From assembly GCA_020850325.1 (NCBI GenBank), contig JADZEW010000008.1, positions 248,001 through 312,000 of the forward strand: a DNA stretch of 64,000 nucleotides. The letters run 5' to 3'. Positions within the stretch are counted from its first letter, which is position 1, and every line of letters starts with the position of its first letter. The notes below the pieces were generated by a model. It was given only the letters and a program-made list of their open reading frames with translations. It was not told the DNA's origin and searched no databases. A program made the translations under genes and the position numbers. Origin of the DNA: Methanoregulaceae archaeon (lineage in GTDB: Bacteria; Armatimonadota; Fimbriimonadia; Fimbriimonadales; Fimbriimonadaceae). This document shows, piece after piece, positions 50,245 through 62,950 of the stretch.

Positions 50245-51609
50245 TTAGAACTTCGAGTCGGAGCTCATGTTGATGAGGACCGGCAGCGTGGGCGTCTGGT
50301 TTGAACCGCCGCCGAACTGGCCCGTTCCGCCCCGACGCATGCGGTAGAACACCTGCCAGCCGAACTCCTGAATCGGGATACGGTTCGTTCGCAACTCAGC
50401 GAGCGTGCTGACGAGCGAGTCGGTGAAGAGGCCGACTTCCTTGCCGTTGCGCATGTAGCTAGCGACGCTTGCCCCGGGGAGCGTGGCTTGAACCTGGGCG
50501 ATCCGACCGACCATCGGCACTTCCATGCCGAAATAGCGTCCCGTTTGAACCGGCCGGCTGGCTTGGAAGAACGCATAGACCCGAGCACCCTTGCGCATCA
50601 GGGTCGAGTACACCTCGGCCTTGGCGACCATCGAGTTGGAATCCGTCAGGTTTGTTGCGTCTACCCCAGCGAGAAAGTCCTTGCCGTCGAGGTTGACTCC
50701 CACGCCGGTGAAGTAGATGAAGACGGTCGCTTCCTCGGGAATGCGATCCGAGAGTGCCTTGACACTGCTGCGAATCTGCTCAGCGGTGGCGTTTAGGATC
50801 AGATCGATATTGCTGTCGAGGTATCCGGCGTGGGTCACGAGAGCTTCGCGGACCCGCTGTCCGTCGTCGCTGCCGAAGGCCAAAGCCGTCCCATCGATGC
50901 CGCTCATCGAGTTGCCGATGATCAGCGCGTACTTTTCGGGGAGCGGTGCGACCACTCCGGCCGGGGGAGCAACAGTCGTCGAACCGGCGGTAGTCGGCGA
51001 TGTGACGGTCGTCGTCGTGCCGCCTGCCGTGGTCGTCGTCGTCGTATTGGACGACGTGGTGGAAGGAGACGTGCCCGGGTAGCTCTGAGCGACCGCGGCG
51101 ACGTCTTCCGGCAACATGCCGTCACCGTCGATGCGCCACGTCAGCTTTGAGGACACCGATTGGTACTTCTCCTGGAGTTGGAGTCGCTTCTCGGTATTGC
51201 CCGACATGATGAAAATCTGGTTGAGGAAGTAGAACGTGGCCGCGCTCAGCTGGTTCTTAGCCAACAGGCCCTCGAACTCTGCGGTTACTTCGCCGAGCAG
51301 GGCGTTCTTGTCGTCCCCCGCAATCGAAAGCGCGTGCTTGAAGCCGGCGTACGCGCTGAGGAAGTTGGGAGAGTACGGCGAGCCGTTCCTCCACTTGCGG
51401 CGCTCGGTAATCGAGCCGGGCAAGGTTGTCTCCCCAGAAACGTCGTCGGTTCGGTAGGCCGCGGCCTGCTTGAACGCGACTCTGGCCTCGGTCCATTTCC
51501 CACCCTTTGCCGCAGTCAGTCCTGCCTCATAGGCCGACATCCATCCCTGGCTGGAGGCCATAGAAACCGCCAACGCCATCAATCCTACGATGACCGTGAT
51601 TTTTCGCAT
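50245..51609 (-). CDS. Secreted caspase-like (peptidase C14) protein, probably inactive
   Basis: A 454-residue protein with a signal peptide (MRKITVIVGLMALAVSMASS), a helical region with TPR-like character (about 20-165), a linker of nearly pure Ser/Thr/Pro/Val (about 180-220) and a caspase-like domain beginning KYALIIGNS. The fold is suggested by VFIYFTGVG, corresponding to the family YFSGHG, and DFLAGVDA. The catalytic His is replaced by Val303 and the position of the catalytic Cys appears to be Ser351 in FFQASRP. It is therefore probably a pseudo-protease. It is the last gene of a three-gene minus-strand locus and has a clear terminator. Confidence 0.75.
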   Translation of the reverse strand: MRKITVIVGLMALAVSMASSQGWMSAYEAGLTAAKGGKWTEARVAFKQAAAYRTDDVSGETTLPGSITERRKWRNGSPYSPNFLSAYAGFKHALSIAGDDKNALLGEVTAEFEGLLAKNQLSAATFYFLNQIFIMSGNTEKRLQLQEKYQSVSSKLTWRIDGDGMLPEDVAAVAQSYPGTSPSTTSSNTTTTTTAGGTTTTVTSPTTAGSTTVAPPAGVVAPLPEKYALIIGNSMSGIDGTALAFGSDDGQRVREALVTHAGYLDSNIDLILNATAEQIRSSVKALSDRIPEEATVFIYFTGVGVNLDGKDFLAGVDATNLTDSNSMVAKAEVYSTLMRKGARVYAFFQASRPVQTGRYFGMEVPMVGRIAQVQATLPGASVASYMRNGKEVGLFTDSLVSTLAELRTNRIPIQEFGWQVFYRMRRGGTGQFGGGSNQTPTLPVLINMSSDSKF

Positions 51610-53788: not shown

Positions 53789-53962
53789 CCTTGACCCTCC
53801 ATAACTCCTTATTCTTGCTTAATTGCGAGGGAAGAATCAAGTGACCCACCCGTGGCGTGGCGTCAATTCGTTGTTTTCCCCCGCAATCCTACGTAGCTTG
53901 CCTAGGCTTAAGACGCTGCAGAGATGCAGATTGTGTCGGACTCGTCCGATCATCCATATGGG

Positions 53963-56212
53963 ATGAGTCTCGGTAGCAGCCTTTCAGGCATCAATTTTAG
54001 CGGCATCAGCAGCGGCATCGACACCGAGTCGATCATCTCGCGCTTGTTGCAGATCGAAGCAATTCCCATCCAGCGGCTTCAAATTCGGCAGCAGCAGCTT
54101 GGTGCTCGCCAGAACCTGCTTAACCAGTTCAAAGGCCGACTGACCGCGCTTTCCACAGCGGCTTCTGCCTTGAACTCGAGCGGATCCTTCAATCCGATCA
54201 CCGCCACCAGCAGCAAGGTCGAAGTAGCGACCATCACGGGTACGTCGTCAGCGGTCGCCGGCACGTACGAACTCAAAATCTCGAAGCTAGCCCAAGCTCA
54301 CAAAGTATCTTCGGCGGCCCAAAACTCCGCTTCGGAGGCCATGAACCTCTCGGGCTCCTTCACGATCAACGGTAAGGGAGTGACGGTTGCCACCACCGAC
54401 AGCCTGACGACGATCGCTCAGAAGATCAACGCTACCTCCTCGGGAGTGACGGCAAGCATCATCGACGGTGGTACGGGCAATGCCTATCTCACGCTGACTG
54501 CTAATGCTTCGGGTGTTGCTGGGAAAGTGCAGATCGGAGATGCGACGGGATCGATCGCAGAAACGCTTGGCCTTACGAGCGGGGCCCTAGCCATTCGCGA
54601 GCCCATCACTGGGGGCGCAACCAGCATTGCCTTCTCCAGTCCGAGCACGAGCCTCGCATCTGCACTGAATCTCACGAGCCCGGGCAGCAAGACGTTCAAC
54701 CTGAACGGCATCAATGTCACTGTTGATTTCGACACCGCCACGCTTCAGGATGTCGCGAATGCGATCAACACGAGCGGCAGCGGCGCAGCCGCCACGGTGC
54801 GAACGGTCAGCAAGGATGGGGCAACCACCTATCATCTCGATATCACCGGGCTGACGACTTTCGACGATCCCGACCACGGGCTTGAGGCCCTGGGTGTGCT
54901 CCAGCGAAGCTACGGCAACCCGATGATCACCGCCCAAGACGCCGCATATGAGCTTGACGGGATTAGCCTCACGAGCGCATCGAACACGATTGCGAACGTC
55001 ATTCCCGGCGCGACGATCAACTTGCTCAAGGCAAACGAGACCACCCCTGAGACCTCGACGTTGACGCTGGCCAAGGACACTGCGCAGATTAAGCAGAAAG
55101 TCCAAGAGTTCGTCGATGCCTACAACGCGGTCACACAGTTCGTCAAGACCAACACCCAGTTCGACAAGGATACGTTTGCGGCGGGCGGGCTCTTTGGCGA
55201 CGCGACGGTCCAAGGGATCGATGCCCAACTCGCGTCCGCGCTGTTCAGTTCGCCGACCGGGCTTTCGGGATCAATCACGAATCTGACCCAGCTTGGGTTC
55301 ACCTTCAGCTCGGAAGGCCAGCTTACGGTGAACGAGGCGACCTTGGACTCCGCGCTTGCGAACAACCTGACGGGGGTTTCGTCGTTGTTCAGAGCGGTCG
55401 GATCGTCAGCCAATGCGCAGATCCAGTTCGTGTCATCGACGTCGAAGACGCGTGCTTCCGGACCGGCTGGCTACTCGGTGGTCATCAGTCAACTCGCTAC
55501 CCAGCATGCCCTACGGGCCGAAGGAGTGCAGACCGATCCGCTGCTCGAGCAGGAGTTCCTGACGTTCGGCGGATCCGCGTTCGGCAACAACTCCTACGAA
55601 CTGGTGTTGGATGCGGGCATGACTCAGGCGCAGATTGTCGAGCGAATCAACAATGACGCCAAGCTCAAAGACTTGGTGAGCGCCACGCTCGACGGCGGAA
55701 AGCTTCAACTGACGGCAAAGAAGTACGGAACCCCCGGCACCTTTACGGTCGCCAGCAACCGAGCCGCGGCAGGGAACACCTCTGGCTGGGGCACAAATGA
55801 GATTGTAGTAGCGGGCGTTGATGTCGCGGGCACGATCAATGGGGAGTCAACGACCGGCTCAGGGCAAATGCTGACCGGATCGACTGGAAACGCGAACACC
55901 GAAGGACTGCAGTTCCTTTACACGGGCAATACGCTTGGGGCCGTCGGCAGCCTCTTGTTCACCAAGGGCATGTCCCCGATCTTCACGGACCTGATCGGCG
56001 GCATGACTGACTCGGTGAATGGAGTGCTCACCGCCACGGACCAGTCCCTTACGGACCAGATCAAAACGATCGACGAGTCCATTTCAGACCTTCAGGAGCG
56101 GCTGGCTGACAAACAGGTGTCACTACGCGCTAAGTTTGCCCGGATGGAACAAGCCGTCAGCCAGCTTCAATCTCAGCAGTCTCGCTTGAGCGCGATCCGG
56201 ACGTCCGGTTAG
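53963..56212 (+). CDS. fliD: Flagellar filament capping protein FliD
   Basis: FliD caps the flagellar filament and helps flagellin fold. The 749-residue protein is large for the family. It has the FliD_N signature SGISSGIDTESIISRLLQIE and IPIQRLQIRQQQL, flagellin_IN-like repeats in the middle (FTINGKGVTVATTDSL, FNLNGINVTVDFDTATL) and a FliD_C coiled-coil C-terminus with DESISDLQERLADKQ. I set the start at the ATG at 53963, just before the conserved part; the frame is open from 53924. No other flagellar genes are in the window. The end overlaps a convergent regulator gene by 56 bases. Confidence 0.9.
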   Translation: MSLGSSLSGINFSGISSGIDTESIISRLLQIEAIPIQRLQIRQQQLGARQNLLNQFKGRLTALSTAASALNSSGSFNPITATSSKVEVATITGTSSAVAGTYELKISKLAQAHKVSSAAQNSASEAMNLSGSFTINGKGVTVATTDSLTTIAQKINATSSGVTASIIDGGTGNAYLTLTANASGVAGKVQIGDATGSIAETLGLTSGALAIREPITGGATSIAFSSPSTSLASALNLTSPGSKTFNLNGINVTVDFDTATLQDVANAINTSGSGAAATVRTVSKDGATTYHLDITGLTTFDDPDHGLEALGVLQRSYGNPMITAQDAAYELDGISLTSASNTIANVIPGATINLLKANETTPETSTLTLAKDTAQIKQKVQEFVDAYNAVTQFVKTNTQFDKDTFAAGGLFGDATVQGIDAQLASALFSSPTGLSGSITNLTQLGFTFSSEGQLTVNEATLDSALANNLTGVSSLFRAVGSSANAQIQFVSSTSKTRASGPAGYSVVISQLATQHALRAEGVQTDPLLEQEFLTFGGSAFGNNSYELVLDAGMTQAQIVERINNDAKLKDLVSATLDGGKLQLTAKKYGTPGTFTVASNRAAAGNTSGWGTNEIVVAGVDVAGTINGESTTGSGQMLTGSTGNANTEGLQFLYTGNTLGAVGSLLFTKGMSPIFTDLIGGMTDSVNGVLTATDQSLTDQIKTIDESISDLQERLADKQVSLRAKFARMEQAVSQLQSQQSRLSAIRTSG

Positions 56213-57119
56213 TCTTTCCCTCGAGCCACGAGGTGAGTTGAGTTGCCGTGTCGCGGAGCGAGAAGCCGCGGAAGTCGACGGGCAGATCTTCGAAGCGTTC
56301 CGGCGCCCTCAATGGTCCGGATCCACCCAGAGCGAGAATGGCCGACGGATAAGTCGACTTCAGTTCCTTGATCAACGTTCGCGCTTCCTGAATCGACTCC
56401 GCCGATGATGAGACCATCACCACGTGGGCTTGATGCTGCCCAACCGACCTCGAAAACGCCTCGGTCGGAACGTTCGCGCCCAGGAAGACAACTTTCCAAC
56501 CTTGCTGTCGCAGGTAGTCGGCCAGCATGCGCAGTCCGATGGTGTGCCAGTTGTTTGCCGCGCACCCAAGCACCGCCGTTCGCCCATTCGGGCGTGCGGG
56601 AAGCTGCGCACTGCTGATCCGAGCGAGCATACGCTCCGTGATTTCGCTCGCGGCGTGCTCTTGAGCTTCGTCGATCGCCCGTTGCTCATACATCCTGCCC
56701 ACCAGGTGCATGGATCTCGAGATCAAGTCTTCGTAGACTTCAATAACTGGCTGGCCAGTGCGCAGAACAAAGTCGATCACGTCCGCGCAACGGGTCTCGT
56801 CGCCCATGACGCCGAAGTGCGCAAATCGCTCGGCAAGTTCGGCAAGGTTGAGTTCGGTGAGCACTTGGCTGCGAACCGCACCGGCCATTCGCACCGCTTC
56901 AGCAATCTCAGGCCCGGCGAGTCGGTAGATCATGAGTCGTCCATCGCGGGTCACGCGTACCGAGTCGTGCTCGCGCATCTTCGCAAGATGGTTGCTGACG
57001 TTGGGCTGTTTATAGCCAGTGGCCTCGACGAGCTGGGATACGGTCTTGGGGCCAAGGAGCAACTCCTGGAGCACAGCTCGTCGCGAATCGATGGCCAAGT
57101 CTTGATAGATGGGCAGCAT
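56157..57119 (-). CDS. ArsR-type regulator with C-terminal cobalamin-binding domain
   Basis: A 320-residue regulator. Residues 1-75 are an ArsR-type winged helix (LLGPKTVSQLVEATGYKQPNVSNHL). Residues 95-170 match the helical B12 cap domain with a Y144-x9-E154-H155 motif; CarH-type photoreceptors have W-x9-EH. Residues 180-300 are a Rossmann-like B12-binding domain with N190-x-His192-x2-Gly195 (usually D/E-x-H-x2-G), keeping the cobalt-ligating histidine, and GWKVVFLGANVP. It could sense adenosylcobalamin or light, as CarH does, but with ArsR instead of MerR DNA binding. It is divergent from an acyl-CoA dehydrogenase gene, a likely target. Confidence 0.85.
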   Translation of the reverse strand: MLPIYQDLAIDSRRAVLQELLLGPKTVSQLVEATGYKQPNVSNHLAKMREHDSVRVTRDGRLMIYRLAGPEIAEAVRMAGAVRSQVLTELNLAELAERFAHFGVMGDETRCADVIDFVLRTGQPVIEVYEDLISRSMHLVGRMYEQRAIDEAQEHAASEITERMLARISSAQLPARPNGRTAVLGCAANNWHTIGLRMLADYLRQQGWKVVFLGANVPTEAFSRSVGQHQAHVVMVSSSAESIQEARTLIKELKSTYPSAILALGGSGPLRAPERFEDLPVDFRGFSLRDTATQLTSWLEGKTNRTSGSRSSETAEIEAG

Positions 57120-57153
57120 AGGGCGGTTTCTTAATCTACGCAGGTTCAGGATA

Positions 57154-57190
57154 TATCATCGGCGGATGTTTCGTGGGGTTAAGTATCATC
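57154..57190. promoter_or_regulatory. Pair of TATCATC direct repeats in the divergent regulatory region
   Basis: TATCATC occurs at 57154-57160 and at 57184-57190, thirty bases apart, close to three helical turns, between the B12-binding regulator gene (start 57119) and the acyl-CoA dehydrogenase gene (start 57198). The second copy also contains a TATCAT -10-like hexamer eight bases before that ATG. They may be operator half-sites of the regulator. Confidence 0.35.
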
Positions 57191-57197
57191 AACGATA

Positions 57198-58313
57198 ATG
57201 GTTTTGCACTTCAACGACGAAGAAAAGGCGTTCTTAGCCTCGGTTCAGCAGTTTGTGGACGAGGTCGCACTCCCTCAAACTCGAGTTTGGGAAAAATCGA
57301 CGTTTCCCAAAGACATCTGGACGATCTGTGCCGCGAAGGGCTTTACATCCTGTGTGTTGCCGAAGGAGTATGGGGGACGAGGCTATAGCTGCCAAACGTA
57401 CGCCGAGATGTGCCGCATTCTCGCTAAGGGCGACCCGGCGCTTTCGATGAACGTTGCGGCGGTGAATGCGCTCTGCGTCGCCCACTTCGAGCATTTCGCA
57501 AACGACGAGCAACGCGCCAAGTATCTTCCGGGGGTGCTCGACGGGTCGATTCCTCTTTCGTGGGGACTCACCGAACCGGATGCGGGCAGCGATGCGCGTC
57601 GGGTCAAGACGTTCGCAACGCCGATCGAGGGTCGGCCGGGCTACTTCCACTTGAACGGCGAGAAGATGTTCATCACGAACGGCGGCTTTGCCAAGCTGTT
57701 CATCATCATTGCCCGGGTCAGCGATACGGAACTCAGCGCGTTCTTCATGGAGAAGGATCAGCCCGGTTTCGAAGAGGTCGGCCGCATTGCCACCACTGGG
57801 GTCTCGGCTTCTTACACGCTCCACTTCCGGATGAAGGACGCCGTTGCGTGGCACACTCCGGGGTCGTTCGAGCAGGTCATTTCGCTGCTTTACCGCGGGC
57901 GCATCGGCATCGGCGCCATGGCGCTAGGCATCGCCGAGAAGGCGCTTGAAGAGGGCATCGAGTATGCCAAGGGCCGCGAGCAGTTCAATCGCCCGCTCGC
58001 TCAGATGCAGTCGGTGCAGAACATGGTCGCCGAGAGCGCGATGCAAGTTGAGGCCGCCCGACTCTTGGTTCACCAAGCCGCTTGGATGTACGATCAGGGT
58101 CTGCCGGTGGTCAAGGAATCATCCTACGCTAAGCTCTTCGCCTCTGAGGCGGCGCGGGACGTTACGAACAAGATGCTGCAAATCCACGGTGGACGCGGCA
58201 TGACGTTCGACTTCCTGATTGAGAAGCTGTGGCGCGACGCAAAGCTGACGGAAATCGGCGAAGGCGCGACGGAGATTCAGAAGCTGATCATCGCAAAGGC
58301 ACTGCTGAAGTAG
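57198..58313 (+). CDS. Acyl-CoA dehydrogenase
   Basis: An FAD enzyme of 371 residues that oxidises an acyl-CoA to the enoyl-CoA. All three domains are present. FAD/acyl-CoA-binding motifs include PLSWGLTEPDAGSD and GEKMFITNGG; the C-terminal domain has QFNRPLAQMQSVQNMVAESAMQ, GGRGM and the probable catalytic Glu in EGATEIQ near the end. The chain length preference cannot be read off; short- or branched-chain types are closest. It is divergent from the B12-binding regulator gene, which hints at a link to B12-dependent propionate or branched-chain metabolism. That link is inference. Confidence 0.93.
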   Translation: MVLHFNDEEKAFLASVQQFVDEVALPQTRVWEKSTFPKDIWTICAAKGFTSCVLPKEYGGRGYSCQTYAEMCRILAKGDPALSMNVAAVNALCVAHFEHFANDEQRAKYLPGVLDGSIPLSWGLTEPDAGSDARRVKTFATPIEGRPGYFHLNGEKMFITNGGFAKLFIIIARVSDTELSAFFMEKDQPGFEEVGRIATTGVSASYTLHFRMKDAVAWHTPGSFEQVISLLYRGRIGIGAMALGIAEKALEEGIEYAKGREQFNRPLAQMQSVQNMVAESAMQVEAARLLVHQAAWMYDQGLPVVKESSYAKLFASEAARDVTNKMLQIHGGRGMTFDFLIEKLWRDAKLTEIGEGATEIQKLIIAKALLK

Positions 58314-58368: not shown

Positions 58369-58836
58369 CTACGTGTTGACTCCGGGTGAATCGGCCTTTT
58401 CGGCCTCGTTGGCGGCGCGAAGCGGAATCCGCTTCACTTCCGGCATTGCCATCTCCGTCTTCGGAAGACGGATTTCAATCACGCCATCTTTGAAGGTTGC
58501 TTCGGCCTGATCGAGGGCATATCCCTCCGGAATGCGGACCGACCGCGCGAACCGCCCATACCGAGATTCACGCCGATACACCTTTGCCTCGGTGGTTTCC
58601 CACTCGGCCTTGGTCTCACCGCGAATCGTCAGTACATCTCGCTCGAATGCCACCTCGACTTCTTCCGGTTTCATCCCGGGGAGTGACGCACGCACAAAGA
58701 GCGCGTTGTCCTTCTCGTAGATGTCCAAAGGCACGTTGGTCGGCATACCCAGCGCAGGAACCTGGCCCCAAAGGCTGTCGATGGATTCCATCAACTGGTC
58801 GAGTTCACGAAGTGGATTCTGTCGATTCAGTAACAT
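58369..58836 (-). CDS. hsp20: Small heat shock protein, Hsp20/alpha-crystallin family
   Basis: An ATP-independent holdase of 155 residues that keeps unfolded proteins soluble. After an N-terminal segment (MLLNRQNPLRELDQLMESID) the alpha-crystallin domain spans about 42-135: PLDIYEKDNALFVRASLPGM, FERDVLTIRGETKAEWE, YGRFARSVRIPEGY and FKDGVIEIRLPKTE. The ATG at 58836 follows a strong AAAGGAGG; the open frame extends to 58887 but that part is the leader. The leader contains a GACCTTGA word (58853-58860 on the plus strand) shared with the grpE inverted repeat. Confidence 0.93.
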   Translation of the reverse strand: MLLNRQNPLRELDQLMESIDSLWGQVPALGMPTNVPLDIYEKDNALFVRASLPGMKPEEVEVAFERDVLTIRGETKAEWETTEAKVYRRESRYGRFARSVRIPEGYALDQAEATFKDGVIEIRLPKTEMAMPEVKRIPLRAANEAEKADSPGVNT

Positions 58837-58960
58837 GGTTTTCCTCCTTTTTGACCTTGATTTGCGGCACCCATTTCCAGATGCCACACTTCATTTATAC
58901 GCCAATCTGGGGCCCAGCAATTGCACCGGGAGGCGGTCTTGCTAAACCTAGAATCTGCAA

Positions 58961-59006: not shown

Positions 59007-62000
59007 TTACGGGGTCAGCGTGAGCGTGGTCGTTCGGTTCGATCCGTAGAAGTTTGCCGATATCGTCACGTTTTGAGTCGTCGACACCGCAGCGGTAATG
59101 ACACTGAACGTGGTTGACGTCGCTCCGTTGGGGAACTGGGCATTCGCTGGCGTGGCTGCGTAGACCGAGTTATCCGTCAACTTGACGATCATGTTCGATC
59201 CCCCGCTGATTGCGGGGAGCGAGATGGTGGCCGTACCCGTCGAGGTCTGGCCTCCTTTCATGGATGCGGGGGACATTGACAACCCGGTCATGACGGGTTT
59301 GACCTTTACGACGATCGTCGCGGTTCGGCTGACGCCCTCAAAGGAGGCGGTGACCGTGCCGGTGAGTTCTGAGGTGACATTGCCCCCCGTGACAGAGAAG
59401 CTCTTGTTTGTTTCGCCGCTGTTCAAGATCAAGGACGTTGGGGTGTAGATCAACGCCGAAGTCTTGGTGATCGCTACGTTCATGGCAAACGGGGCGGCTC
59501 GAGTCAAGCTCAGGTTCGCCGTCGTTGCCGTCAGCCCGTAGATCGTGTTTGGGTTGATCGACAACGAGTCGAGAGTGGTGTAAGGACCCGCAACGAAGTT
59601 CTGGTTAGACGCGCTGGGTGGGCACGTCAGCAGGCGCCAACGCGGGCCAAACATTTTGCCGGTGATCCACGGGTAGATCCGGTAGTTTCCGGCAGGGATG
59701 TCAGTGAACGCGTAGAGGCCCCTGGCATCGGTCACGGCGGTCGACAGGTTGCTATACCCTTCGTAGGTGGGCATGACGTTGAACTGGTTCAGGGTGCCCG
59801 TATCTTGGGTGGCCAAGTCGCGGACGATTAACTTCCATGTCCCTCGGGAGTTCTTACCATTGAAGACAGCGGTCGAGTACAGCTGGTCAATGTTGTCCGT
59901 GCCAGCACCGGTGCGATCATGGAGCGTCACCTGCGTGCCATCCGGATGGCTGAGCACGACCTGCAGGTCGCCAATGTAGGTATGCGTGATTCGGACATAC
60001 ACCTCGGTGTTCTTGATCGTGGCGCTGAGCGGGACGTATAGGTTTGCGGTCACGCCCGTCGGGTTGTTGTCAGGGATCGGAGAGTTTGGTGTCGAAGCGA
60101 TGGTGGGCTTGATGTCCTGCCATCGCGCTAACGTCACGTTGACGTTTGGCATGTTGACGCCGTTCTCGGTGATCCGGCCGCTGATATCGCTGCCCGCCGG
60201 AATGATCGGGATGCGCCAGATGCCTCTGCCAAAGGTGGAGGCATAGAGGTAGGTCTTGGTTCCGTTGATGTGGAGCCCAGTTACCTGGGTGTTGGGCAGG
60301 CCAAGCGCATTCATGCGCGCCCACGTGGTCCCAGCGTCCGTCGTCATGAAAGCCCCGATGTCGGTTCCCACGTACCAAGTGTTTGGGTGGTAAGGATCGC
60401 GGGCGATCGATTGGACCCCGCTCGATGGCAGGCCGGTTTGGCCGGTGCCGCTGACATTGGTCCAAACGGGTGTGCCCGCGAGCGTGTTTGTGCATCGCCA
60501 TACATGGCCGAAGTTACCGGCGTCGCTAAATCCCACGAGGACGTCGCTCGGGTTGGTCCAGGAGACCGAGATCGCACCGAACTTGCGATCATCGAGGCCA
60601 GCGTCAACCCGAACAAAGTTGACCCCCTTGTCGGGCGTTCGCCAGAGTTGGCCATCGTTGGAACCGGTGTAGATCACATTCATGTCAGACGGGGCCCTGG
60701 CAAGTTCAAGAACATAGGCGTAACTGCCGCCGGCGAGTACCTGAGTTCGGGCGGTGAAAGCGGTTCCAGAGCCGCTGTAGTACTGCAGCCGGGCGTTCGC
60801 CCCAAAGATTTCCGCGCCGTTGCCAGCAGCAATGAGGGGGGCAATGAACGCTCCGCCCCCGGTCACGCTCAGTTGCGACGGAGAGTAGTCGGTGAGCCCA
60901 TCGTAACGGTACACGCTCAGGTTGTAACTCTGGGTGTAGTGGGTGTCCGGATTGTTCAGATTGAACGCCGGCCAAGCGCCGTCACCGGCCCACAGGTTGT
61001 CCCAGTTGTTAAGGTCGCCCCGGGCGGCTGGGCTCGCGTTGTCCTGGGTGCCTCCGAGGACCACGTTGTCATTGGTCGGGTGCGGAATCATCTCGTAGAA
61101 CTGGCAATCGAAAATGTCCGCGTTGAGCCCAGTCCATGTGCCGGCCCCCGTGCCGAAGTTGCTCATCGTGAACCGATGAACGCCACCGTCGTTGCCGATG
61201 ATGAACTCCGCCGGGTTGCTTGGGTTTACCGCCCAGCAATGCTGGTCGTTATGAGTGTTAATCGGCGAGGGCCCAAACGTCCGCCCGATATCGATCCAGC
61301 TTCCGCCACCGTTGGGCGAATAAGCGACGGTAATGAGCCCGACAAACACCGCATCGGCGGCTCCGTTTGTGGCGCAGTCGATGTAGTAGTCATAGGTCTT
61401 CTGGCTCCAGTTGTAGTTGTTGCTACCGGTCGGGAATCCGGTCGTGATGCTGGACCACGATGTACCACCGTTGGTGGACTTGTAGATCGTGTTGTTGGCC
61501 ACGCTCAGGTAGTACAGGGTGTTCGGGTCTAGCTTTGAGCACGCGATATCGACCGCCGAAGGGGTGCCACCCGTGTAAGGAGGGGTGACCGCCGTCCACG
61601 TTGCACCGCCGTCGGTGGACTTTGCAAGGCGCCCGCCCGCCACGCTTCCATGGGTGCCGACAGCCCACAGCGTGCGGTTGCCTTGTTGGTCCGCTGCGCC
61701 TAAAACGACCTCTTCCCAGTTCGCAGCGGGGGCATCGGTGGCTGTCCAACTGGCCCCTCCGTCAGTCGATCGCCAGATGTCGCCGCCATTCTGGCCAGCT
61801 CCGCCGCGCCCGGTCGATACCACGATGGTGTTGGGGCTGTTCGGAAGGATGACAATCTTGGACACCACGGAGTTGCCGAATTGAGCCTGGCCGACGTTGG
61901 TCCACGTTGTTCCGCCGTTCGTCGTCTTCATGATGCCGAACGTGAGGATAGGGAAGCCCTCGTAATCGCCGGTCCCGACGTAGACCGTGTTTGGATCGGT

Positions 62001-62774
62001 TGGATGGATGGCGACGCTCTCCGCGTTGAGCCCAGTCCAGCTATCGCTCAGGCCTGTCCAGGAACTCCCGCCATTCGTTGACTTCCACACTCCGCCGCCC
62101 GCGGAGGTGGTGTAGATGATCGAAGCGTTCGAGGGAGCGTAGGCGATGGCTGACTTGCGCCCGCTGAGGGGCCTCTTGCCGTAATAGGTCGAGTACGGGA
62201 TGTCGAGATTCTTCGGGCCGACGTATTGGAAGCTGCCCGACGGCGCGAGGCTTCCCCCGACTCGGGGCCATTCCGCGGGCGGCATCTGATCGCGGTGTTG
62301 GGTGGCTTCGTACATCCAGCGGGGATCCCAGTTGCCGTTCTGGTCGCTGCGCGTTTGAAGAAACCACTCGAGGGCCCGGTAAAACCCGTTGCCAAGCTTG
62401 TCGCCGCGTTCTCTGGCCATGCTGGCGGGGAAGCCGGTCATCACATCATAGCGGGCATTGACGAACTTCAGATACTGGCGAACAGAGGTGAGGCTGCTCG
62501 TGTCGGGAGCAAGCGCCGTTGCGGGCATCACGTACTTCACTTTCGGGGCCAGCTGTGCCTGCGCGACCTCGAAAGCAACGCCTGGTTTCAAGGCGATGAC
62601 GAAGAATCCGGAAGGATCTTGGCGCGTAATCTCGCCCACAGGTACGGCAATCTCTTTGGCTCTCTCAAGTGTGAGCTTGTGCTCGCCAATAATCAGGTCG
62701 TCGGCCGCGAGGGCGGTTACCGCGGCCAGCAGACAGGCGAGCAGCGTGACAGGCTTCAACATCGATCCAGACAT
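59007..62774 (-). CDS. Large secreted sortilin/BNR-type propeller protein with P-domain
   Basis: A protein of 1255 residues with a signal peptide (MSGSMLKPVTLLACLLAAVTALA). About residues 190-820 hold many Asp-box motifs (STNGGSSWTGLS, STDGGASWTATD, TTDAGTTWARM) with NTVYVGTGD strands, a sortilin-like propeller pair. Next come a carboxypeptidase-regulatory-like part (SGRITENGVNMPNVNVTLA) with a proprotein convertase P-domain inserted near residues 905-1010 (VYVRITHTYIGDLQVVLSHP, RGTWKLIVRD), and two C-terminal Ig-like repeats with the TATISLPA pattern. The ATG at 62774 follows AGGAG. It is a paralogue of the protein at 37425-40367 but with extra C-terminal domains. It is probably extracellular; the ligand is unknown. 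Confidence 0.82.
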   Translation of the reverse strand: MSGSMLKPVTLLACLLAAVTALAADDLIIGEHKLTLERAKEIAVPVGEITRQDPSGFFVIALKPGVAFEVAQAQLAPKVKYVMPATALAPDTSSLTSVRQYLKFVNARYDVMTGFPASMARERGDKLGNGFYRALEWFLQTRSDQNGNWDPRWMYEATQHRDQMPPAEWPRVGGSLAPSGSFQYVGPKNLDIPYSTYYGKRPLSGRKSAIAYAPSNASIIYTTSAGGGVWKSTNGGSSWTGLSDSWTGLNAESVAIHPTDPNTVYVGTGDYEGFPILTFGIMKTTNGGTTWTNVGQAQFGNSVVSKIVILPNSPNTIVVSTGRGGAGQNGGDIWRSTDGGASWTATDAPAANWEEVVLGAADQQGNRTLWAVGTHGSVAGGRLAKSTDGGATWTAVTPPYTGGTPSAVDIACSKLDPNTLYYLSVANNTIYKSTNGGTSWSSITTGFPTGSNNYNWSQKTYDYYIDCATNGAADAVFVGLITVAYSPNGGGSWIDIGRTFGPSPINTHNDQHCWAVNPSNPAEFIIGNDGGVHRFTMSNFGTGAGTWTGLNADIFDCQFYEMIPHPTNDNVVLGGTQDNASPAARGDLNNWDNLWAGDGAWPAFNLNNPDTHYTQSYNLSVYRYDGLTDYSPSQLSVTGGGAFIAPLIAAGNGAEIFGANARLQYYSGSGTAFTARTQVLAGGSYAYVLELARAPSDMNVIYTGSNDGQLWRTPDKGVNFVRVDAGLDDRKFGAISVSWTNPSDVLVGFSDAGNFGHVWRCTNTLAGTPVWTNVSGTGQTGLPSSGVQSIARDPYHPNTWYVGTDIGAFMTTDAGTTWARMNALGLPNTQVTGLHINGTKTYLYASTFGRGIWRIPIIPAGSDISGRITENGVNMPNVNVTLARWQDIKPTIASTPNSPIPDNNPTGVTANLYVPLSATIKNTEVYVRITHTYIGDLQVVLSHPDGTQVTLHDRTGAGTDNIDQLYSTAVFNGKNSRGTWKLIVRDLATQDTGTLNQFNVMPTYEGYSNLSTAVTDARGLYAFTDIPAGNYRIYPWITGKMFGPRWRLLTCPPSASNQNFVAGPYTTLDSLSINPNTIYGLTATTANLSLTRAAPFAMNVAITKTSALIYTPTSLILNSGETNKSFSVTGGNVTSELTGTVTASFEGVSRTATIVVKVKPVMTGLSMSPASMKGGQTSTGTATISLPAISGGSNMIVKLTDNSVYAATPANAQFPNGATSTTFSVITAAVSTTQNVTISANFYGSNRTTTLTLTP

Positions 62775-62950
62775 GATTCTCCTAAAACACCGCTTCGCCA
62801 CGCCCTTGCCGCTTACGAGCAGTACTCAACTAGGATAACGGACGGTTCGAGATTTGGTGGTCGTTCGACCGTTGTTCAGACGAAACCTGGCAATACTCTG
62901 GGCGTTCGAGACCTGCTTAGCCTCCGATGATTCAATCGGGAGGGAAACCG

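Follow-up and report, generated by a model that had tools for sequence, protein, structure and literature searches.

Can a vitamin B12 sensor be joined to a DNA-binding head other than the MerR type, and what would such a protein sense and control? B12 photoreception has been studied almost only in the MerR-type CarH/LitR proteins. The question is raised by a gene, here termed REG, in a 64,000-nucleotide stretch of a Fimbriimonadaceae genome (the window, meaning the whole stretch analysed), whose product had been predicted to consist of an ArsR winged helix, a cobalamin cap and a cobalamin-binding domain.

Domain architecture and distribution of the REG family

The gene and the parts of its product are located in the window as follows.

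56157..57119, minus strand: REG, ArsR-B12 regulator gene, 320 aa
56895..57119, minus strand: ArsR winged-helix DNA-binding domain, residues 1-75, with an almost invariant recognition helix KQPNVSNHL
56610..56846, minus strand: four-helix B12 cap, residues 92-170
56655..56690, minus strand: Y144-x9-E154-H155, which corresponds to the upper-face motif W-x9-EH of CarH, with no variation at E154 or H155
56220..56588, minus strand: Rossmann-type cobalamin-binding domain, residues 178-300
56535..56552, minus strand: N190-x-H192-x2-G195, with the predicted lower axial His and the N/S at position 190 that is characteristic of the REG family

The open reading frame has an ATG start, and the predicted domain order is borne out by Pfam matches that are all above the curated cut-offs, namely HTH_5/ArsR (residues 12-50, E 5e-10), the B12-binding_2 cap (residues 96-167, E 4e-9) and B12-binding (residues 181-283, E 1e-21). 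REG also passes the NCBIfam HTH_metalloreg model (57.6 against 55 bits). Pfam gave no MerR match for REG or for any of 30 relatives, which have HTH_5 instead. Inspection of the sequence found no Cys in residues 1-110, hence the helix-turn-helix (HTH) has no classic ArsR-type metal site and REG is not a classic metal sensor; it has an ArsR-family fold without being a metalloregulator.

CarH homologues have been defined by Wx9EH together with E/DxHx2G, and a longer B12 signature, H-x2-G-x41-S-x-T/V-x22-27-GG, is found in CarH and MetH (PMC8156234). The translation of REG contains exactly the motifs originally predicted, Y144-x9-E154-H155 and N190-W-H192-T-I-G195. The spacing of the longer signature fits, with G195, S237 and G265-G266 in place and S239 replacing T/V; when the signature is extended to E/D-x-H-x2-G-x41-S-x-T/V-x22-27-GG, REG has the His, the Gly and the spacing, and the E/D is replaced by N/S throughout the relatives. 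The SignatureFinder light signature (GxxW, EH, GxxH, GxxxP) reads GxxY, EH, NxxH, GxxxP in REG, while some relatives, for example L051 (GKWW, GNWH), carry all four elements. The SignatureFinder study mentions HTH-fused light-responsive domains in general (PMC11796333).

The survey for further ArsR-B12 fusions proposed in the original prediction showed that REG is not a one-off. Using a profile built from 30 members, we found it encoded in 54 of 291 Armatimonadota genomes, 42 of the 54 belonging to the window's own family. The relatives, which come from MAG-based assemblies with ad hoc gene calls, include Fimbriimonadaceae and Chthonomonadales, and the same three domains are present in all 30 aligned members. 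A scan of genome contigs with the single REG protein found two loci only, both in Armatimonadota, and a search of plasmids for ArsR-B12 fusions gave half-matches only, neither of which is proof of absence elsewhere; in the open-access literature we found no description of ArsR fused with a CarH, B12-binding or cobalamin-binding domain.

Among 29 distinct members E154, H155, H192, G195, G214, V217, P218, G265 and G266 are invariant, and GxxxP and GG are retained across these relatives (n = 29). Position 144 is Y in 20 of them, W in seven and F in two, and Tyr at this position is not special. Position 190 is N in 25 and S in four and is never D/E; N/S in place of D/E is a true mark of the family. 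The Tyr and Asn changes might, as originally suggested, tune the response to light or ligand. The residue aligned with His132 of TtCarH is never His in the family alignment.

The AlphaFold2 model of REG (pLDDT 89.5) has the four-helix cap and Rossmann fold of CarH/LitR, and the best folds retrieved with it by Foldseek were B12 photoreceptors. The C-terminal two thirds superpose best on the photocobilin SasPcob (Z 25.2, 2.0 Å, 207 residues), with Z scores of 24.5 for CtMerR, 24.1 for AbDPcob and 19.1 for TtCarH (5c8e). AppA and AerR are also in the fold list, AppA with Z 19.5, below the cobalamin photoreceptors SasPcob, CtMerR and AbDPcob. The best PDB sequence match is CtMerR (E 7.5e-20). Cobalamin binding by REG is likely.

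One ArsR-B12 relative (L065:5933-6835, minus strand, genome G090) has EFNGIA replacing x-H-x2-G, with loss of the lower-ligand His, and is perhaps a B12-independent derivative; a search for an adenosyltransferase gave no match in the same genome. A different B12 regulator (L066:5672-6583, minus strand, genome G070, of the same order) carries its HTH, a Cro/C1-type HTH_3 (Pfam E 4e-15), at the C-terminus, after a cap and a B12-binding domain, and its motifs are canonical, W-x9-EH (His right after W) and D-x-H-x2-G. Judged by its domain matches, this protein is a second swap of the DNA-binding head on a B12 sensor.

A shared putative operator and its predicted targets

Two further features lie upstream of REG.

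57152..57173, no strand assigned: predicted operator TATATCATCGGCGGATGTTTCG, imperfect inverted repeat, 15.7 bits (motif scan)
57198..58313, plus strand: ACAD, acyl-CoA dehydrogenase, 371 aa, conserved divergent partner of REG

REG indeed faces an acyl-CoA dehydrogenase gene, as had been claimed, across 78 bp, and the link is conserved, a close divergent ACAD (within about 300 bp) being found beside REG in 31 of the 40 Fimbriimonadaceae genomes examined. Outside the window's genus ACAD identity is about 56-80%. With the cut-off used, 57 of 101 genomes proved to contain ACAD, which is common also in genomes without REG; its best named model, acryloyl-CoA reductase, is far below cut-off. FadB-like and ETF genes lie near REG-ACAD in several Fimbriimonadaceae genomes, whereas the window has fliD instead, hence the pair has survived rearrangement. 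The neighbours of REG vary in other Armatimonadota families.

Thirty REG-ACAD intergenic regions have in common a 22-bp inverted repeat, TAnATCActnnnnagTGATnTA, its centre usually 25-60 bp before REG. At a width of 22 bp the palindromic model reached an LL of 93, where dinucleotide shuffles gave 46 or less, and at 24 bp it reached 114, where they gave 47 or less, a contrast that overstates the significance of the motif because related genomes are not independent; the fasciclin and own-genome tests described below are independent of that contrast. In the window the predicted operator falls inside 57120-57197, the stretch named in the original prediction, with its midpoint 44 bp ahead of REG and 35 bp ahead of ACAD. 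The motif is also present before REG in loci that were not used for training (L047 at -21, L062 at -23, L033 and L113 at -123, L116 at -117). We infer that REG is the protein that binds it.

A shorter palindrome (w = 10-14, AgTatAcT) was set aside as probably representing promoter -10 elements (AGTAGAAT/AGTACAAT before ACAD). The AGTAGAAT/AGTACAAT sequence recurs before the ACAD start in Fimbriimonadaceae REG-ACAD intergenic regions and may be a -10 promoter element of this family (TAGAAT/TACAAT). Neither REG nor the ECF sigma factor gene described below has a recognisable sigma-70 promoter nearby.

A consensus search with the motif led to fasciclin and ECF sigma factor genes. Fasciclin homologues were then taken from 101 genomes, and the motif, trained on REG-ACAD regions only, was used to score the 300 bp in front of each gene. 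A site of at least 10 bits was found upstream in 18 of 27 genomes with REG and in one of 25 without it, this exception being a fragmented assembly (G058) whose congeners have REG; nine of the 27 fasciclin promoters in genomes with REG have no site of this strength. Within Fimbriimonadaceae the counts are 18 of 27 against one of 11 (Fisher p 0.003), and with one value per genus and state p is 0.007, phylogenetic non-independence being only partly handled. In genus g30, the two genomes with REG keep the fasciclin site (17.1 and 13.2 bits) and the one genome without REG lacks it upstream.

The window's own genome was scanned over 862 kb and then over 1.63 of 3.52 Mb (46%). The top match belongs to an ECF sigma factor gene, 27 bp upstream of its ATG (C35:145137-145158, 19.2 bits), and the second lies before a fasciclin gene (C8:452172-452193, 16.4 bits); Pfam matches to sigma-70 regions 2 and 4 and to Fasciclin bear out the identities of the two products. 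The REG/ACAD operator scores 15.7 bits, and after the 15.7-bit matches the next is at 12.3. The reversed sequence of the 1.63 Mb scan gave a maximum of 15.0 bits, and column-permuted motifs on the first 862 kb gave a mean maximum of 14.9 and a highest value of 18.5; with a motif built without the window's genus the same top three were recovered in the first 862 kb. The own-genome fasciclin site was first met in the pattern search, and the ECF site is therefore the own-genome match that was found blind. ECF orthologues in eight further genomes from four other genera (61-70% identical to the own copy) have a site 38-92 bp upstream, but these sites were found through the motif itself, so that only the own-genome ECF site is unbiased.

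The REG protein, its family, the motif and the association of the motif with REG are thus established by computation; new here are the palindrome in the REG-ACAD intergenic regions and the predicted regulon. ACAD is one predicted target among several and not the most telling one, given the sites before the ECF sigma factor and fasciclin genes, and the idea that it is the sole target was dropped once these trans sites emerged.

A fourth match (15.7 bits, L151:3223-3244, G000:C24:143722) lies 39 bp before a gene for a cyclic-nucleotide-binding-domain protein, followed by apparent cyclase genes; it is due to chance or is a further target, is probably incidental, and was not counted. Near pseudopilin genes in G043 and G168, operator-like matches (L141, L142) are placed right after a stop codon, and they were discarded since they resemble terminator or chance palindromes. 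An 11.4-bit site at an arsR-like gene at C26 was likewise rejected; this gene product carries a Cys motif, and probably ArsR operators look alike.

Light, cofactor supply or another ligand

Sequence, fold, the invariant cobalamin residues and the family-wide operator all speak for the proposal of a B12-dependent sensor placed on another DNA-binding fold. We propose that REG is an AdoCbl-dependent, probably light-released repressor that combines an ArsR winged helix with a CarH/photocobilin-type B12 domain and controls an ECF/fasciclin/ACAD regulon, a reading whose truth we judge to be evenly poised. The fold and the invariant residues predict that AdoCbl is sandwiched by the four-helix cap, through Y144, E154 and H155, and the Rossmann domain, whose H192 would be the lower ligand. 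REG would bind the 22-24 bp inverted repeat TAnATCAct-N4-agTGATnTA, as comparative genomics supports, before its own gene (a site shared with ACAD), the ECF sigma factor gene and the gene for a fasciclin-domain surface protein, and the closeness of these sites to the start codons suggests that bound REG represses. Light would then break the Co-C bond and REG would let go, so that the sigma factor, fasciclin and ACAD would be made as a photooxidative-stress response and REG's own gene would also be freed.

Light sensing by REG we infer by analogy with known relatives. In the dark, AdoCbl-loaded CarH occupies its DNA, which it releases on illumination (PMC8156234), and LitR acts through the ECF factor LitS (PMC12705666). 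In the photooxidative response of Rhodobacter sphaeroides a fasciclin gene is up by 2.8-4.5 log2 units (PMC7074977), and in Azospirillum a fasciclin gene works under RpoE-ChrR, according to a citation in PMC10949492. The predicted REG regulon echoes both the LitR-LitS light circuit and the photooxidative-stress fasciclins. AdoCbl is expected in the cell, since the genome encodes a PduO adenosyltransferase and the AdoCbl-using methylmalonyl-CoA mutase; one cobalamin riboswitch was found, near its threshold. Three proteins of this genome match B12-binding in Pfam, the others being the methylmalonyl-CoA mutase small subunit and a MetH-type protein, and REG is the only HTH-B12 protein among them. 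Since no His is ever found at the H132 position, any light state of REG cannot be the bis-His form of TtCarH and would resemble that of CtMerR, which has Arg there.

Counting against light, the targets reached with the motif include none of the classic ones of B12 photoreceptors, such as carotenoid genes or photolyase; REG also lacks the Trp conserved in all CarH homologues studied and the D/E two residues before the lower His, and it departs from two of the four published light-signature elements (GxxW, GxxH). These two changes, together with the missing His at the H132 position and the existence of cobalamin-domain proteins that are not light-responsive (PMC11796333), would fit an AdoCbl-dependent but light-independent REG that senses B12 supply or cofactor integrity (oxidative or nitrosative AdoCbl damage) and governs the same ECF/fasciclin/ACAD stress set. 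However, substitution of H132 does not abolish the light response, CtMerR having Arg and AbDPcob Tyr at this position (PMC11796333), none of the aligned relatives departs from the EH that covers the adenosyl group, the top-ranking folds belong to photoreceptors, and fasciclin is a known photooxidative-stress gene elsewhere; we therefore consider a light-independent REG rather unlikely.

The conserved divergent ACAD could also point to a switch for B12 economy, in which REG would match a propionyl or short-chain route to the AdoCbl available for methylmalonyl-CoA mutase. The mutase is present in the genome, FadB-like and ETF genes lie near the pair in several genomes, and acryloyl-CoA reductase is the best, if far sub-threshold, named model for ACAD. 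This is quite improbable, given that the mutase operon, MetH locus and PduO region, all within the scanned stretches, contain no operator of at least 11 bits, that the sites predicted in trans belong to an ECF sigma factor gene and a fasciclin gene, and that the same ACAD is common in genomes without REG. A loss of cobalamin binding, like that of class II LitR and the SCHIC/AppA group, with heme, another ligand or a partner protein sensed instead, has only a very slim chance of being correct: it draws on the changes at positions 144 and 190, a weak AppA_SCHIC match in one of 30 members and the presence of AppA and AerR among the folds, against which stand the invariance of His192, E154, H155, G195, GxxxP and GG, which fits cobalamin constraint, and the lower rank of AppA.

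Relation to known regulators and surroundings of the locus

The light-released repressor that we favour resembles CarH and class I LitR in its N-terminal DNA-binding domain followed by cap and cobalamin domain, its E-H motif and lower His, and its predicted control of its own gene and, like LitR with LitS, of an ECF sigma factor. It differs in having an ArsR winged helix rather than MerR, Y (or W/F) in the family rather than a fixed Trp, N/S where D/E would be expected, two positions ahead of the lower His, a residue other than His at the H132 position, and, as predicted targets so far, fasciclin and ACAD rather than carotenoid genes. With a sequence that lacks the MerR head, the Trp and the D/E, REG is not a CarH by the published definition; its proposed way of working is CarH/LitR-like.

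CtMerR of Chloracidobacterium thermophilum (8JBS/8JBT) shares with REG a superposable B12 domain and the absence of the H132 His, but has a MerR-type DNA-binding domain and canonical GxxW and D-x-H, none of which REG has. The photocobilins SasPcob (8J2W) and AbDPcob (8J2Y) have the closest B12-domain folds and also a non-His residue at the H132 position; they differ in carrying a biliverdin-binding globin-like domain where REG has a DNA-binding domain, and in their canonical Trp and Glu. With the ArsR/SmtB metalloregulators REG shares the winged-helix fold and the type of operator, an AT-rich inverted repeat with TGA/TCA, in contrast to its Cys-free HTH without a classic metal site and its large C-terminal B12 sensor.

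Tentatively, and with slightly less than even confidence, we see here a second, MerR-independent lineage of B12 light repressors in Armatimonadota. Its members would have an ArsR head, a cap that tolerates Tyr and a lower ligand tuned by Asn/Ser, and would turn on an ECF sigma factor and a fasciclin photooxidative defence in a LitR-LitS-like circuit. In this little-studied phylum REG may act as a sensor of light or of B12. If this is true, a conserved ArsR-type family whose operator is defined and whose predicted regulon is small would show that a B12 sensor can sit on another DNA-binding fold, would offer a natural test of the roles of the Trp cap and the Asp/Glu-His pair in photochemistry, would provide a candidate response to light or B12 in Armatimonadota, and would supply a compact DNA-binding part for optogenetics.

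The 3' end of REG overlaps the convergent fliD (53924-56212, plus strand) by 56 bp (56157-56212). Beyond ACAD, the minus strand of the window carries an Hsp20 small heat-shock gene (58369-58887) and a gene for a 1264-aa secreted sortilin/Vps10-type protein with a proprotein-convertase P-domain (59007-62801). A secreted caspase-like protein (50245-51609, minus strand; Peptidase_C14, E 2.5e-8) has FTGVG and FQASR at the usual catalytic His and Cys contexts and may be a dead metacaspase.
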